Assembly (NCBI RefSeq): GCF_002157505.1
Contig: NZ_NFSC01000031.1
Location: forward strand, 372,001-436,000
Source: Arthrobacter agilis
GTDB lineage: Bacteria > Actinomycetota > Actinomycetes > Actinomycetales > Micrococcaceae
Direction of reading: 5' to 3'
Length of the DNA: 64,000 bases
Made by a program: the position numbers and the translations under genes. Below, piece by piece: positions 52,532 through 57,617 of this stretch. Position 1 is the stretch's first letter, and each line of letters begins with the position of its first letter. The notes under the pieces are model-generated. The model ran no database searches. It was not told the origin of the DNA and was given only the letters and a program-made list of their open reading frames with translations.

Positions 52532-54181
52532 CTACATCCTCTCCGGCGCGGACACGCCGAGGAGGTCCAGGCCGTTCGCCAGGACCTGCTGCGTCGCGTT
52601 GTTCAGCCACAGGCGCGAGCGGTGGACGTCCTCGACGGCGGCGTCACCGAGTGGGGCGACGCGGCAGGCGTCGTACCAGCGGTGGTAGGTCCCCGCGATG
52701 ACCTCGAGGTGGCGCGCCACACGGTGCGGCTCGCGGAAGGTCGCGGACTGCGCGACGACGCCGGGGAACTGGCCGAGCGCGGCCAGCAGCTCGCCCTCGG
52801 TGGGGTGGCTCAGCGACGCGGCGTCGAAGGTGCTGGTGTCCACTCCGGCGGACACGGCATTGCGGGCGACGGCGTGCGTCCTGGCGTGCGCGTACTGCAC
52901 GTAGAACACGGGGTTCTCGTTCGTGCGCCGCGTGAGCAGGTCGAGGTCGATGTCGATGTTGGAGTCGGCGGAGAACCGGGCCAGGGTGTACCGGGCAGCG
53001 TCGACGCCCACGGCATCAACGAGGTCCTCGAGGGTCACGACCGTGCCGGCACGCTTGGACATCCGGACGGGCGCCCCGTTCTGCATGAGGTTCACCATCT
53101 GGCCGATGAGGACCTCGACGGTGTCGGGGTCGTCGCCGAGGGCCGCGGCGGCGGCCTTCAGGCGTGCGACGTACCCGTGATGGTCGGCGCCCAGCATGAT
53201 GATGTTGAGGTCGAAGCCCCGCCTGCGCTTGTTGACGAAGTAGCCGATGTCACCCGCGATGTAGGCGGGCGACCCGTCCGACTTGATGACCACGCGGTCG
53301 CGGTCGTCGCCGAAGTCGGTCGACTTCAGCCACCAGGCACCATCCTCGTAGAAGAGGTTCCCGGAGCCCTTCAACTGCTCGAGGAGGCCCCCGACGAAGT
53401 CGTTCTCGAACAGCGAGTGCTCATGGAAGTAGACGTCGAAGTCGACCCCGAAGTCGTGGAGCGACTTCTTGATGTCGGTGAACATGAAGTCCACGCCGAC
53501 CACCCGGAAGCGTTCGATCGCGTCGGCCTCATCCAAGGACAGGATGTCCGGCTCCGCGGAGACGACGCGCTGGGCGATGTCCTCGATGTACTGGCCGCCG
53601 TAGCCGTCCTCCGGAGCGGCCTTCCCGGACGCACTCGCGAAGAGCGAGCGGGCGAACCGGTCGATCTGCGCACCGTGGTCGTTGAAGTAGTACTCCCGCA
53701 CGACGGACGCGCCCTGCGACTGGAGCACGCGCGCCAGTGCGTCTCCCACCGCCGCCCACCGGGTTCCGCCGATGTGGATGGGACCCGTGGGATTCGCCGA
53801 GACGAATTCGAGGTTGATCTTCTGGCCCGCGAGCGCATCGCTGCCCCCGTAGGCGCGACCCGACTCGACGATGGTGCGGGCGAGTTCGCCGGCCGCTCCG
53901 GCGTCGAGCGTGATGTTGAGGAAGCCCGGACCGGCGATGTCGACGCTCTTCACGCCATCGATCGCGGCGAGGCGGTCGCTCAGGAGCTGGGCGAAGGCCC
54001 GCGGGTTCATGCCCGCCTTCTTGCCGAGCTGGAGGGCGATGTTCGTCGCCCAGTCCCCGTGCTCCCGGTTCTTCGGTCGCTCCACACGCACCTCCGAGGG
54101 GAGGTCGATGCTGAGGTCACCTGCCTCGACGGCGGCCTTCAGGCATGCGGAAATAGCGGCAGAGAGTTCTTCGGGAGTCAC
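52532..54181 (-). CDS. argS: Arginyl-tRNA synthetase
   Basis: A 549-residue class I synthetase. The HIGH motif appears as HIGG (136-139, in [13 protein letters not shown]) and the KMSKS region as RMSKRAG, both normal for ArgRS. N-terminal tRNA-recognition domain and C-terminal anticodon-binding helical domain ([16 protein letters not shown] and onward) are complete. The start is GTG with TATGCT six bases upstream. First gene of the argS-lysA-hom-thrC-thrB unit. A tRNA-Arg gene lies 3.3 kb away, probably by chance. Confidence 0.97.
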
Positions 54182-54193: not shown

Positions 54194-54413
54194 GCGACAC
54201 GGGCCGCGGCACCCTGATTTTCGTGACGCGGCTCAACTCGCGGCGCCCGGCCGGCCGGCTCCGGGAGCCGACGGACACCGGCAGAACAGTCCGCGGGGCA
54301 GCCGGAAACGAAGCATTGATGGAACGCTGGACCGGTTCCGCACGTTACTTTCAGATTCAACCATTCCTTTGTGCGGGGCCCACCCGCATCCCGGCGACCA
54401 CCAGGAGCATGCA

Positions 54414-55043
54414 GTGACCAGAACAGCCCCGACCGGCACCCCGGCTGACAGAACCCCCACCCCATCCGCCGGCACGACGTCCGGCACGACATCCGGCACG
54501 ACGTCCGGGGAGTCGCGACCCGGGACAAGCGGCCGGACCGCCTTCCCCGTGCACAAGCGCGTGCTGACGGCACTCGCCGCCGTCTCGATCCTCGGTGCCG
54601 CGGGCTGTGCGGGGGCCGAGGCCGGAACGCCGGCCGAGACCGCTGCGGATGCTCCGGCAGCCACCGGGTCGGAGGAGACCGCAGCCACCGGGTCGGAGGA
54701 GACGGCCGCTGCCGGGACCGCGGAGACGGCGGCCGCCGGTGACCACGCCTACCGGGACGGCACCTACACCTCGAAGGGTTCCTACCAGTCACCTGCAGGG
54801 CCGGAGGAAGTGGGCGTGACACTCACGCTCGAGGCCGACGTCGTCACCGCCGTCGAGGTCGAACCGATGCCCGACAACCCGACCACGCGGGAGTACCAGG
54901 GGCGCTTCGCGGGCGGCATCTCGGATGCCATCGTCGGGAAGAAGCTCGACGACCTCGCCGTCGACAAGGTGGCTGGATCCTCGCTGACAAGCGGTGGCTT
55001 CAATGATGCGACCGGCAAGATCAAGAGCGAAGCCCGGCTCTAG
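54414..55043 (+). CDS. FMN-binding-domain lipoprotein
   Basis: 209 residues. A long disordered N-terminus with TSGT repeats precedes a hydrophobic signal (VLTALAAVSILGAAGC) with lipobox Cys65. A second low-complexity stretch (ATGSEETA repeats) leads to a C-terminal FMN_bind domain (about 122-209: YRDGTYTSKG, QGRFAGGISDAIVG, VDKVAGSSLTSGGF). The Ser/Thr in GSSLT is where ApbE would attach FMN. GTG at 54414 with AGGAG upstream; a GTG at 54549 just before the signal helix is an alternative giving a normal lipoprotein. Followed after seven bases by apbE. Likely an extracytoplasmic one-electron carrier. Confidence 0.85.
   Translation: MTRTAPTGTPADRTPTPSAGTTSGTTSGTTSGESRPGTSGRTAFPVHKRVLTALAAVSILGAAGCAGAEAGTPAETAADAPAATGSEETAATGSEETAAAGTAETAAAGDHAYRDGTYTSKGSYQSPAGPEEVGVTLTLEADVVTAVEVEPMPDNPTTREYQGRFAGGISDAIVGKKLDDLAVDKVAGSSLTSGGFNDATGKIKSEARL
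54471..54506. repeat. 12-bp tandem repeat (x3) near the lipoprotein N-terminus
   Basis: Three units of GGCACGAC[GA]TCC, in frame, encoding the SGTT repeat before the signal helix. Confidence 0.9.
54657..54728. repeat. 24-bp tandem repeat (about x3) in the lipoprotein linker
   Basis: Two nearly identical 24-bp units (54657-54680 and 54681-54704) and a diverged third (54705-54728). Encodes AATGSEET-type repeats between lipobox and FMN_bind domain. Confidence 0.9.
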
Positions 55044-55050
55044 GCCCGGC

Positions 55051-55911
55051 ATGACCGACTCCTTCAGCTTCGACGCGATCGGCACCCGCTGGCGTGTGGA
55101 CTGCAGCGCGCCGCTTCTGCCGGAGCAGAAGACGGACCTGCTGCGCCTCGTCGAGGACTACGACGGGCTCTACTCGCGTTTCCGGAGCGACTCCGGAATC
55201 ACCGCCCTCGCGGCCGATGGGGGACAGCTCGCCCTGCCGGACCATGGTGTGCGGCTCGGCGGCCTCCTGCGTGCGCTCTACGACCTCACCGACGGCGGTG
55301 TCTCACCCCTTGTCGGCGACCGGCTGGCGGCCTCGGGGTACGACGCCGCCTACTCCTTCACCGGAACGGCGGACCCGGCGCCGGCACGCGTGTGGGACGA
55401 CGTCCTGCAGTGGACGGACCAGGGCATCACCCTGCAGGAGCCGGCTCTCCTGGATGTGGGCGCAGCAGGCAAGGGCCAGCTCGTCGACCTCCTGCTGGAG
55501 CGCCTCGCCGCCGCGGGCCACGAGGACGTGATCGTGGACGCCGGCGGGGATATGCGGCGGATCGGCTCCGGCGCCATCACCGTCGCCCTCGAGCATCCCT
55601 ACGATCCGTCGTCCGCCATCGGGACGGTCCGTCTGGGCTCCGGTGGGCTCTGCGCGTCCGCGTCCAACCGCAGGGTGTGGGGCGACGGTCTGCACCACAT
55701 CCTCGACGCCCGCACCGGCCGCTGCGTCGACACGGTGGTCGCCACGTGGGTCCTCGCGGAGGACGCGATGACCGCCGACGGACTGTGCACCGCCCTCTTC
55801 GTCACCGACCCCGCGGCACTCGCGGAGGCCTTCGCGTTCGACTACGTCATGGTGTACTCGGACGGACGCGCCCGCTATTCCGCCCCCCTCGCAGGAGCCC
55901 TGTTCCGATGA
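55051..55911 (+). CDS. apbE: FAD:protein FMN transferase
   Basis: A 286-residue ApbE-family enzyme that links FMN covalently to a Thr/Ser of FMN_bind proteins; its likely target is encoded just upstream. The region LDVGAAGKGQLVDLLLERL matches the family's DxGGIAKGYxxD motif with GAA in place of GGI, and VDAGGDMRRIG and DPSSAIGTVRLG follow. The C-terminal Mg site region reads TVVATWVLAEDAMTADGLCTALF. No signal peptide is visible from the ATG at 55051, unlike proteobacterial ApbE lipoproteins, so export is unclear. Coupled to the next gene by ATGA. Confidence 0.92.
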   Translation: MTDSFSFDAIGTRWRVDCSAPLLPEQKTDLLRLVEDYDGLYSRFRSDSGITALAADGGQLALPDHGVRLGGLLRALYDLTDGGVSPLVGDRLAASGYDAAYSFTGTADPAPARVWDDVLQWTDQGITLQEPALLDVGAAGKGQLVDLLLERLAAAGHEDVIVDAGGDMRRIGSGAITVALEHPYDPSSAIGTVRLGSGGLCASASNRRVWGDGLHHILDARTGRCVDTVVATWVLAEDAMTADGLCTALFVTDPAALAEAFAFDYVMVYSDGRARYSAPLAGALFR

Positions 55912-57413
55912 CCGCAGCACTCGACGCCCTGCTGGGCCGCCTGACCATGTACCGGCTGACGCTGGCCCTGCTCCTGGTCCTGACCGTCGAGGCCCTCGTG
56001 CTGTCGCTGGCGGGCCTCCTCGCCTTTTCGCCGGCCGAGCTCGGCGGGACCCTCCTCGCCGCGGTCGGCGGAACGATCATCGGCACGCGACTCCTGGCCC
56101 TGATCCTGCGGCTGCGTCCGCACGGTGACTCGTCGCTCATCACGGGGCTGATCGTGTTCCTCATCATGTTCCCGTCGGGCACCACGGCCGGCCTCGGCGG
56201 CATCCTGGTGGCCGGCATCGCCGCCGGAGCGTCGAAGTTCCTGCTGGCCTTCCGGGGGCGGCACATCTTCAATCCCGCCGCAACGGGTGCCGTCGTCGCG
56301 ACCCTGCTGGGAGTGGGGGCAGCGGGGTGGTGGGTAGCCAACGCCTACATGCTTCCCGTCGTCGCCGTCGGCGTCGCCCTCCTCGTCTACCGGACGCGGA
56401 AACTCTCCATGGCCGTGGTCTTCCTCATCGTGGGCATCGGCATCCTGCTCGTCGGACTGGTGCAGGGCGGCATGGCTCCCGGTGCGGGCCTGCAGCTGGT
56501 CCTCACGTCGTATCCCCTCCTGTTCCTGGTCGGGTTCATGATGACCGAGCCGCTCACCCTGCCGCCGCTTCGGTGGCAGCAGTGGCTGTTCGCCGCGATC
56601 GTCGCCACCGTCCTCGCCCTCCAGCTGTCCATCGGCCCGGTCTTCCTGGGCCCGGAATTCGCCCTGGTCATCGGCAATGCGGGAGCCTTCCTCCTGGGCC
56701 AGCGGCGCGGCGTGCGGCTGGCCTTCGCCGGCGCACGGCAGCTCACGCCGACCAGCACGGAGCTCGTCTTCGAGCCCTCGCGGCCCGTGCGGTTCCGTGC
56801 CGGCCAGTACATGGAGCTCAGCATGCCGCACCGCGACGCCGACCGCCGCGGCAGCCGCAGGGTCTTCAGCATCACGTCCGCGCCGCAGGACACCGCAGTC
56901 ACCTTCGGCGTGCGGACCACGGAATCGGGCAGCTCCTTCAAGAAGGCACTCCTCGAACTGCCCAGGGAGGCACGCATCACCGGAACCCTCGTGGGAGGGG
57001 ATTTCTGCCTGCCACGCGACCGGTCGGTGCCCCTGCTGCTCGCGGCCGGAGGGATCGGCGTGACGCCGTTCATCAGCCAGCTACGGGACCTGGCCGCGCG
57101 CGGCGAGGAGCGCGATGTCGTTCTCGCCTACGTCGTCCGGAGCGAGGAGGACATCGCGTTCCGGGACGAGCTGGCCGACCTGGGCACCCGCGTGGTGCTG
57201 TTCGTGCCCGGCGGAGAGGCCCCGGCCCTGCCCGGCACCTGGACCTACGGGGGCTCGGCTCCTGATGCGGAGAACCTCCTCGCGGCCGTGCCGGACCTCC
57301 GGAAGCGCCGGGTGCTCGTCTCGGGCTCGCCGAAGCTCATCGGCGAGATCCGCGCGGAGGTCCGCAAGGCCGGCGTCTCGCGCGTACGCACGGACGCGTT
57401 CCTCGGCTACTGA
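55908..57413 (+). CDS. RnfD/NqrB-like membrane domain fused to ferredoxin reductase-type domain
   Basis: 501 residues. Part one (1-270) has about eight membrane helices with FNPAATGA at 121-128 and LTSYPLLFLVGFMMTEPLTLPP, marks of the NqrB/RnfD flavin-carrying subunit. Part two (271-501) is an FNR-like module: FAD site FRAGQYMEL and RRVFSIT, NAD(P) site LLLAAGGIGVTPF (about 377-389), and a C-terminal aromatic residue. This suggests transfer of electrons from NAD(P)H through FAD and membrane FMN to the outer lipoprotein. Last of three coupled genes. The fusion replaces several Rnf/Nqr subunits. Confidence 0.85.
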   Translation: MTAALDALLGRLTMYRLTLALLLVLTVEALVLSLAGLLAFSPAELGGTLLAAVGGTIIGTRLLALILRLRPHGDSSLITGLIVFLIMFPSGTTAGLGGILVAGIAAGASKFLLAFRGRHIFNPAATGAVVATLLGVGAAGWWVANAYMLPVVAVGVALLVYRTRKLSMAVVFLIVGIGILLVGLVQGGMAPGAGLQLVLTSYPLLFLVGFMMTEPLTLPPLRWQQWLFAAIVATVLALQLSIGPVFLGPEFALVIGNAGAFLLGQRRGVRLAFAGARQLTPTSTELVFEPSRPVRFRAGQYMELSMPHRDADRRGSRRVFSITSAPQDTAVTFGVRTTESGSSFKKALLELPREARITGTLVGGDFCLPRDRSVPLLLAAGGIGVTPFISQLRDLAARGEERDVVLAYVVRSEEDIAFRDELADLGTRVVLFVPGGEAPALPGTWTYGGSAPDAENLLAAVPDLRKRRVLVSGSPKLIGEIRAEVRKAGVSRVRTDAFLGY

Positions 57414-57521: not shown

Positions 57522-57524
57522 TCT

Positions 57525-57597
57525 GCCTTCGTAGCTCAGGGGATAGAGCGTCTGCCTCCGGAGCAGAAGGTCGTAGGTTCGAATCCTATCGAGGGCA
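57525..57597 (+). tRNA. tRNA-Arg (anticodon CCG)
   Basis: A 73-base cloverleaf. Acceptor arm GCCTTCG pairs with CGAGGGC with one wobble; D arm GTAGCTCAGGGGATAGAGC; anticodon stem TCTGC/GCAGA around loop CTCCGGA (anticodon CCG); T arm TAGGTTCGAATCCTA. Discriminator A. CCA is not encoded (CCC follows). It reads the CGG codon, frequent in this high-GC genome. Confidence 0.95.
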
Positions 57598-57617
57598 CCC
57601 CGACTCACGCAGAGTCC

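Follow-up and report, generated by a model that had tools for sequence, protein, structure and literature searches.

A flavinylation cassette of Arthrobacter agilis with a fixed acceptor serine and a leaderless ApbE, a candidate route for electron export

The window analysed here is a 64,000-nucleotide stretch of DNA from Arthrobacter agilis, taken from a contig that forms part of a 3.88 Mb, 31-contig genome. At positions 54414-57413 of the plus strand it carries a three-gene cassette encoding, in order, a lipoprotein with a domain of the flavin mononucleotide (FMN)-binding type, the FMN transferase ApbE and a protein in which an NqrB/RnfD-like membrane domain is fused to an FNR-type NAD(P)H:flavin reductase module. 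The first two genes are separated by 7 bases and the ATG of the fusion gene overlaps the ApbE stop codon as ATGA, a layout claimed by the first-pass annotation of this DNA and borne out by the open reading frames, domains and folds. What stands out beyond an already known architecture is a fixed acceptor serine in the lipoprotein and a leaderless ApbE with an exported partner. With moderate confidence the three genes are interpreted as an operon that exports electrons in one direction and represents a divergent branch, within Actinobacteria, of the NQR/RNF-like flavinylation systems, in which the lipoprotein would be loaded with FMN in the cytosol before export.

The A. agilis fusion protein matched PF00175 at 28.9 bits (cut-off 22), as did 29 of 34 family fusions at E ≤ 0.1, and fold searches assigned an RnfD fold to its membrane domain and an NqrF/FNR fold to its C-terminal module. 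An RRxFS motif is invariant in the fusion alignment (A1, 34 rows, excluding the fusions of L037, which is in two pieces, and L070, which is shortened; alignment A4 comprises 29 of the 34 rows), and a C-terminal GY is present in 33 of 35 fusions, the remaining two being broken or shortened. The motif [ST]GA[ST] was absent from the membrane domain of all 34 fusions and occurred anywhere in the protein in only two, at non-corresponding spots of the cytosolic part. A stretch of RnfD between two aligned parts (residues 144-219), presumably the one that holds its covalent FMN site, is without a counterpart in the profile alignment. Fusion genes are broken or shortened in L037, L070 and L175, which may point to decay of the cassette in certain lineages or to assembly errors.

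The A. agilis ApbE matched ApbE chains of the PDB with E-values to 3.3e-26, and all 33 aligned ApbEs share Ser203, His216 and Asp243 (alignment A3, omitting the ApbEs of L060 and L070, whose starts are unsure and which are included in the locus counts). Placed through the PDB ApbE alignments, these residues probably constitute the Ser-His-Asp triad, given for a Vibrio ApbE, itself outside the alignments, as Ser241-His257-Asp285 in a review (PMC12052999). Their invariance suggests that the cassette enzyme is active. For the lipoprotein a fold search returned the FMN_bind structure 8p2a, NqrC and RnfG, and 31 of its 35 relatives matched PF04205 (FMN_bind) at E ≤ 0.1. PF02424 and PF00175 match the A. 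agilis proteins directly, whereas neither PF04205 in the lipoprotein nor PF03116 (NQR2_RnfD) in the fusion gave a Pfam match in A. agilis, both being recovered through relatives and fold searches.

To describe conservation, loci of relatives were pooled with the A. agilis window (L071, from the same genome, being left out), giving 132 loci with a fusion, 122 of them distinct by sequence. Distinct counts are used because several family genomes recur among the named records; counts of start overlaps, promoter patterns and twin-arginine motifs are not de-duplicated, while those of gene order, acceptor residue, lipobox and cassette leaders are de-duplicated or distinct. The fusions of L037 and L070 were restored in the locus counts, a broken fusion being represented by its best piece. 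Co-occurrence of the fusion with the other two genes, a survey also suggested in the first-pass annotation, proved to be the rule, with both partner genes found by profile beside 115 of 122 distinct fusions, and in all 115 the order is lipoprotein-ApbE-fusion on one strand. Of 89 loci scored, 66 have a 4-nt overlap between the nearest fusion start and the end of the ApbE gene. The ApbE domain starts 7-134 nt past the lipoprotein stop codon in measurable loci (4 of the 89 lack the start motif used to measure this spacing), except for L172, where approximately 2.6 kb separates the two genes. Seven distinct fusions are exceptions to the three-gene arrangement. Contig ends truncate three loci (L085, L110 and L112), and in L173, L174 and L246 the FMN_bind partner is too diverged for the profile at the threshold used, being read directly in L174 and L246 and giving a weak profile match in L173; the seventh, L063, is considered below.

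The genomic site is similarly conserved. Of the 35 family loci, 32 have an opposite-strand argS match 1.5-4.6 kb ahead of the fusion; a tRNA-Arg lies within 1.5 kb downstream, again in 32 of them. In A. agilis the divergent upstream neighbours are argS, lysA and hom, as named from their open reading frames. The cassette is rarer outside the family, being detected in 20 of 198 genomes of the taxonomic order and 8 of 396 of the phylum (E ≤ 1e-40; both counts include the family's own). Relatives of the fusion in named records include those of Arthrobacter species, for example A. agilis and A. ruber, at 82-83% identity. A fusion 82% identical to that of A. agilis was also present in a record titled Vibrio cholerae strain 35D (L077), an assembly that looks mislabelled or contaminated with Arthrobacter, and a 19 kb plasmid labelled Pseudomonas sp. 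DR48 (L247; NZ_CP081947.1) carries a serine-form cassette with a 49% identical fusion, through either contamination or transfer. Upstream of the cassette a GAAC-N-CGTTG-type pattern resembling promoters of extracytoplasmic function (ECF) sigma factors was present in 28 of 120 regions against 36 of 2049 control windows, the pattern having been picked after part of the data was seen.

Table 1. Features of the A. agilis cassette and its surroundings (positions in the window)
Feature	Position	Strand	Remarks
Lipoprotein with C-terminal FMN_bind-type domain	54414..55043	+	209 aa; GTG start after AGGAG
Signal segment and lipobox VHKRVLTALAAVSILGAAGC	54549..54608	+	Cys65 codon 54606-54608; read from translation
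Ser190 at FMN-acceptor position, motif DKVAGSSLTSGGF	54981..54983	+	Invariant in lipoprotein alignment; HMMER alignment to 8p2a
ApbE, FAD:protein FMN transferase, leaderless	55051..55911	+	286 aa; PF02424 3.5e-33; PDB ApbE chains
NqrB/RnfD-like membrane domain fused to FNR-type NAD(P)H:flavin reductase	55908..57413	+	501 aa; PF00175, folds
Membrane domain, fusion residues 1-264	55908..56699	+	RnfD fold; no [ST]GA[ST] motif
FAD/NAD(P)H-binding module, fusion residues 265-501	56700..57413	+	PF00175; NqrF/FNR fold; invariant RRxFS, C-terminal Tyr
Possible ECF-sigma-like promoter GGAAAC ... CGCTG, tentative	54304..54329	+	Upstream alignment; A. agilis copy departs from pattern
argS, divergent neighbour, landmark outside system	52532..54181	-	Open reading frame reading
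tRNA-Arg(CCG), downstream landmark outside system	57524..57600	+	Site conserved in family loci

The C-terminal block of the lipoprotein (e.g. SKVAGSSLTSGGFN) contains a pair of serines, the second of which was aligned by HMMER to the threonine of SGATYTS in 8p2a (E 0.084). The Ser190 position is invariant in the lipoprotein alignment (A2), and every one of the 115 distinct loci has a serine at the FMN-acceptor position. The acceptor core reads AGSS in 86 of these, SGSS in 18, GGSS in 7, ASSS in 3 and SGAS in one, corresponding to an [ASG][GS]SS form in 114 and the canonical SGAS only in L162, while the residue six positions before the acceptor is Asp in 54, Ser in 48 and another residue in 13. 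Cassettes of another actinobacterial class (L174) and of a Mesorhizobium plasmid (L246) retain a canonical SGAT with threonine, indicating that the serine form marks the actinobacterial branch studied here. The review gives the flavinylation motif as D-x-x-[S/T]-G-A-[S/T] and describes ApbE as accepting serine (PMC12052999). The lipoprotein might nevertheless lack covalent flavin, with a serine variant that binds FMN only loosely, or does not bind it, and with ApbE serving another cytosolic protein, a possibility in keeping with the weak Pfam matches to FMN_bind and with a motif that is canonical in a single locus. This is considered unlikely, as the acceptor serine is retained in every distinct locus, the canonical L162 included, ApbE lies next to the lipoprotein by gene order in all 115 three-gene loci, and the fusion offers no alternative conserved target motif.

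Signals for export of the lipoprotein are equally widespread. A lipobox pattern was present in 114 of 115 distinct loci and credible in 113, the exceptions being a spurious match in L086, where the frame is broken upstream, and L078, where the region is masked by N; in the set that was not de-duplicated it was present in 122 of 124 loci once the spurious L086 match was removed. These predicted signals indicate that the lipoprotein is exported. Paired arginines occurred in 36 of 124 signal regions and a motif of the twin-arginine translocation (Tat) type in nine, suggesting that Sec is the likely export route.

The absence of a signal peptide from the A. agilis ApbE had been called odd in the first-pass annotation if the target is outside. 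The protein is indeed leaderless, but this is not an oddity of this one gene, since a hydropathy rule flagged none of 120 cassette ApbEs as carrying a hydrophobic leader (those of L110, L112 and L173 are incomplete and carry no weight) and 38 of 70 other ApbEs of the phylum are also without one. The latter figure derives from a survey of 71 loci (30 returned loci, 40 chosen stretches from a longer match list, and L071), in which a very similar rule flagged leaders in 30; after reading by eye L201 and L212 were moved to the leader group and L200, at a contig end, was set aside, giving 32 of 70 with a leader. Lack of a leader is therefore not peculiar to the cassette. Within the class to which genome G421 belongs, leaders were present in nine of nine assessable ApbEs from cassette-free genomes (L183, L185, L189, L191, L196, L202, L204, L205 and L209), and the cassette ApbE of L174, from the same class, is leaderless and starts MKQTRALMGM. 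The cassette ApbE on the Mesorhizobium plasmid pB2-1-1 (L246) is also leaderless, starting MGMPITV 25 nt past its neighbour. In five loci with leaderless ApbEs (L240-L243 and L245) a canonical FMN_bind motif lies nearby, in each case together with a hydrophobic segment at the N-terminus; near the other surveyed leaderless ApbEs no such motif was found by a pattern that also missed two in L071. Sampled cassette ApbEs form one clade with support of 100/100 (9 of 33 sampled).

These features most likely reflect an ApbE that loads FMN in the cytosol before its partner is exported. ApbE is able to modify a seven-residue motif, according to the review (PMC12052999), and it accepts serine, so an unfolded pre-protein could be its substrate. 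The enzyme might instead act outside, leaving the cell by a leaderless or carrier-assisted route and flavinylating the lipoprotein there in the manner of classical lipoprotein ApbEs. The same source describes ApbE as typically exported and membrane-anchored, and its signal-less example, from Klebsiella, has a soluble cytosolic target (PMC12052999), both of which would favour an external site of action. Set against the lack of any leader among the 120 cassette ApbEs, three of them incomplete, and the supply of flavin adenine dinucleotide (FAD) that would also be needed outside, an external ApbE appears quite improbable.

In the proposed pathway for electron export, NAD(P)H would reduce FAD in the cytosolic FNR module, and the NqrB/RnfD-like domain would take the electrons across the membrane, with a non-covalent flavin as the probable carrier. 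They would then reach FMN on Ser190 of the membrane-anchored lipoprotein before leaving to an acceptor outside. The leaderless ApbE would attach FMN, derived from FAD in the cytosol, ahead of export and lipidation of the pre-lipoprotein, and the FMN-bearing chain would pass through Sec. This translocase tolerates bulky side groups. A route from NAD(P)H through the FNR module and membrane domain to a flavinylated surface protein had been put forward by the first-pass annotation, and it fits the domains, folds and conserved gene order; the covalent FMN on Ser190, its loading before export, the membrane-domain flavin, the direction of flow and the terminal acceptor are inferred. A hint at a use comes from the VIT-family gene near the Mesorhizobium cassette, and iron reduction is a candidate function, although nothing recognised near the A. 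agilis cassette speaks for or against it. On that plasmid (L246:2499-9272) the cassette is flanked on one side by a gene pair for a VIT-family protein and a cytochrome b and on the other by a two-component system together with a PepSY protein, hinting at iron and at regulation, and six VIT1-bearing clusters are reported in a 2021 survey (PMC8238504).

A number of observations weigh against cytosolic loading and electron export. The acceptor motif departs from D-x-x-[S/T]-G-A-[S/T] in 114 of 115 distinct loci, with Ser in place of Ala, and has the Asp in only 54, and serine is a poorer acceptor than threonine in the account given by the review (PMC12052999). Twin-arginine signals are not conserved, so that a folded holo-protein is not expected to leave through Tat and the FMN-bearing chain would need Sec. 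As noted above, many ApbEs of the phylum that do not belong to the cassette are leaderless too. L063 retains the fusion at the argS/tRNA-Arg site, yet neither a lipoprotein nor an ApbE gene was found there; a 503-codon open frame on the minus strand (L063:3264-4772), transporter-like by eye, lies where they would be. Finally, no substrate, iron or respiratory gene was recognised beside the A. agilis cassette when the open reading frames were read by eye, no profile search being made.

Flow in the opposite direction would have an outside donor reduce the FMN of the lipoprotein and the fusion hand electrons to NAD(P)+; direction is not fixed by sequence, and FNR modules are reversible. Such inward flow is nonetheless very improbable, the published class being proposed as outward (PMC8238504, PMC11334425) and the Mesorhizobium plasmid relative lying near a VIT-family gene, which fits iron reduction. 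That a complete Rnf or Nqr ion pump left the cassette behind as a remnant is scarcely credible despite the RnfD fold of the membrane domain and the NqrC/RnfG-like fold of the lipoprotein, as the cassette is conserved as three genes, sits between argS and tRNA-Arg in most family loci, and no further pump subunit was recognised by eye in the neighbourhood, the rest of the genome not being searched.

The proposed order of events may extend beyond A. agilis. There is about an even chance that it holds for NqrB-FNR cassettes as a whole, in different classes and in two or more phyla: a cytosolic ApbE would flavinylate the pre-protein first and the flavin would cross Sec attached, making FAD export needless, and in the actinobacterial branch the site would have become a fixed serine motif recognised by its own ApbE clade. 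If true, covalent flavin cofactors could be installed before export, in contrast to the usual picture in which both ApbE and the FAD it uses are exported, and flavin-carrying surface proteins would be explained in bacteria without leadered ApbEs. A search of one full-text library, judged by titles and abstract openings, turned up no paper dealing with this branch or with flavinylation ahead of export.

Several known systems share parts of this design. RNF and Na+-NQR (RnfD/RnfG, NqrB/NqrC/NqrF) have membrane, FMN-carrying and FAD/NADH modules that are related by fold, but the cassette has one electron path, with the NADH module fused on and the counterpart of RnfD 144-219 missing in the alignment, and the remaining subunits were not recognised among nearby open reading frames (argS, lysA and hom on one side, tRNA-Arg on the other). 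The A. agilis genome contains a second flavinylation cluster (L071:2344-5693; G000:C15) that seems to be one of the MsrQ-like systems of Actinobacteria. It shares with the cassette FMN_bind proteins (two matches, carrying SGATYTS), a leaderless ApbE and, judged by eye from the open reading frame, a membrane protein that ends in a reductase module. It differs in the threonine of the SGATYTS motif, and the membrane part of MsrQ-like systems belongs to another family in the literature, PF01794, of which no match was found in the fusion at E ≤ 1. Extracellular electron transfer in Listeria (Ndh2/EetAB/PplA/FmnB) resembles the cassette in outline, leading from NAD(P)H to a flavinylated surface lipoprotein (PMC9973259). 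However, FmnB works outside whereas the cassette ApbE is leaderless, and Ndh2 and EetA/B were not recognised near the cassette by eye, no search being made. The lack of a hydrophobic leader by the hydropathy rule (0/120) likewise sets the cassette ApbE apart from classical extracytosolic ApbEs.

The architecture as a whole is already known as the NQR/RNF-like flavinylation system (PMC8238504, PMC11334425). The first-pass annotation had pointed to a single fused protein in place of the multi-subunit Rnf/Nqr parts; the fusion is present, but such an arrangement had been published, a survey listing 127 NQR/RNF-like clusters, primarily from Actinobacteria and the candidate phyla radiation (CPR) (Meheust 2021 eLife, PMC8238504). 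A later study models one such cluster and proposes a non-covalent membrane flavin (Huang 2024 mSystems, PMC11334425). Shared with these systems, as described there, are an NqrB/RnfD-like domain fused to a PF00175 module, a membrane domain without a covalent-FMN site, an extracytosolic FMN-bind subunit with a signal peptide or lipidation site, and an ApbE in the cluster. Against the text descriptions of published members, the A. agilis cassette differs in proteins that escape Pfam PF04205 and PF03116, in an acceptor serine within GSSLTS rather than [S/T]GA[S/T], and in its leaderless ApbE. Because it misses both Pfam families and has no leader on ApbE, the A. agilis member was probably passed over in the published survey, and the branch could escape surveys resting on Pfam cut-offs and signal peptides or be mislabelled in them.

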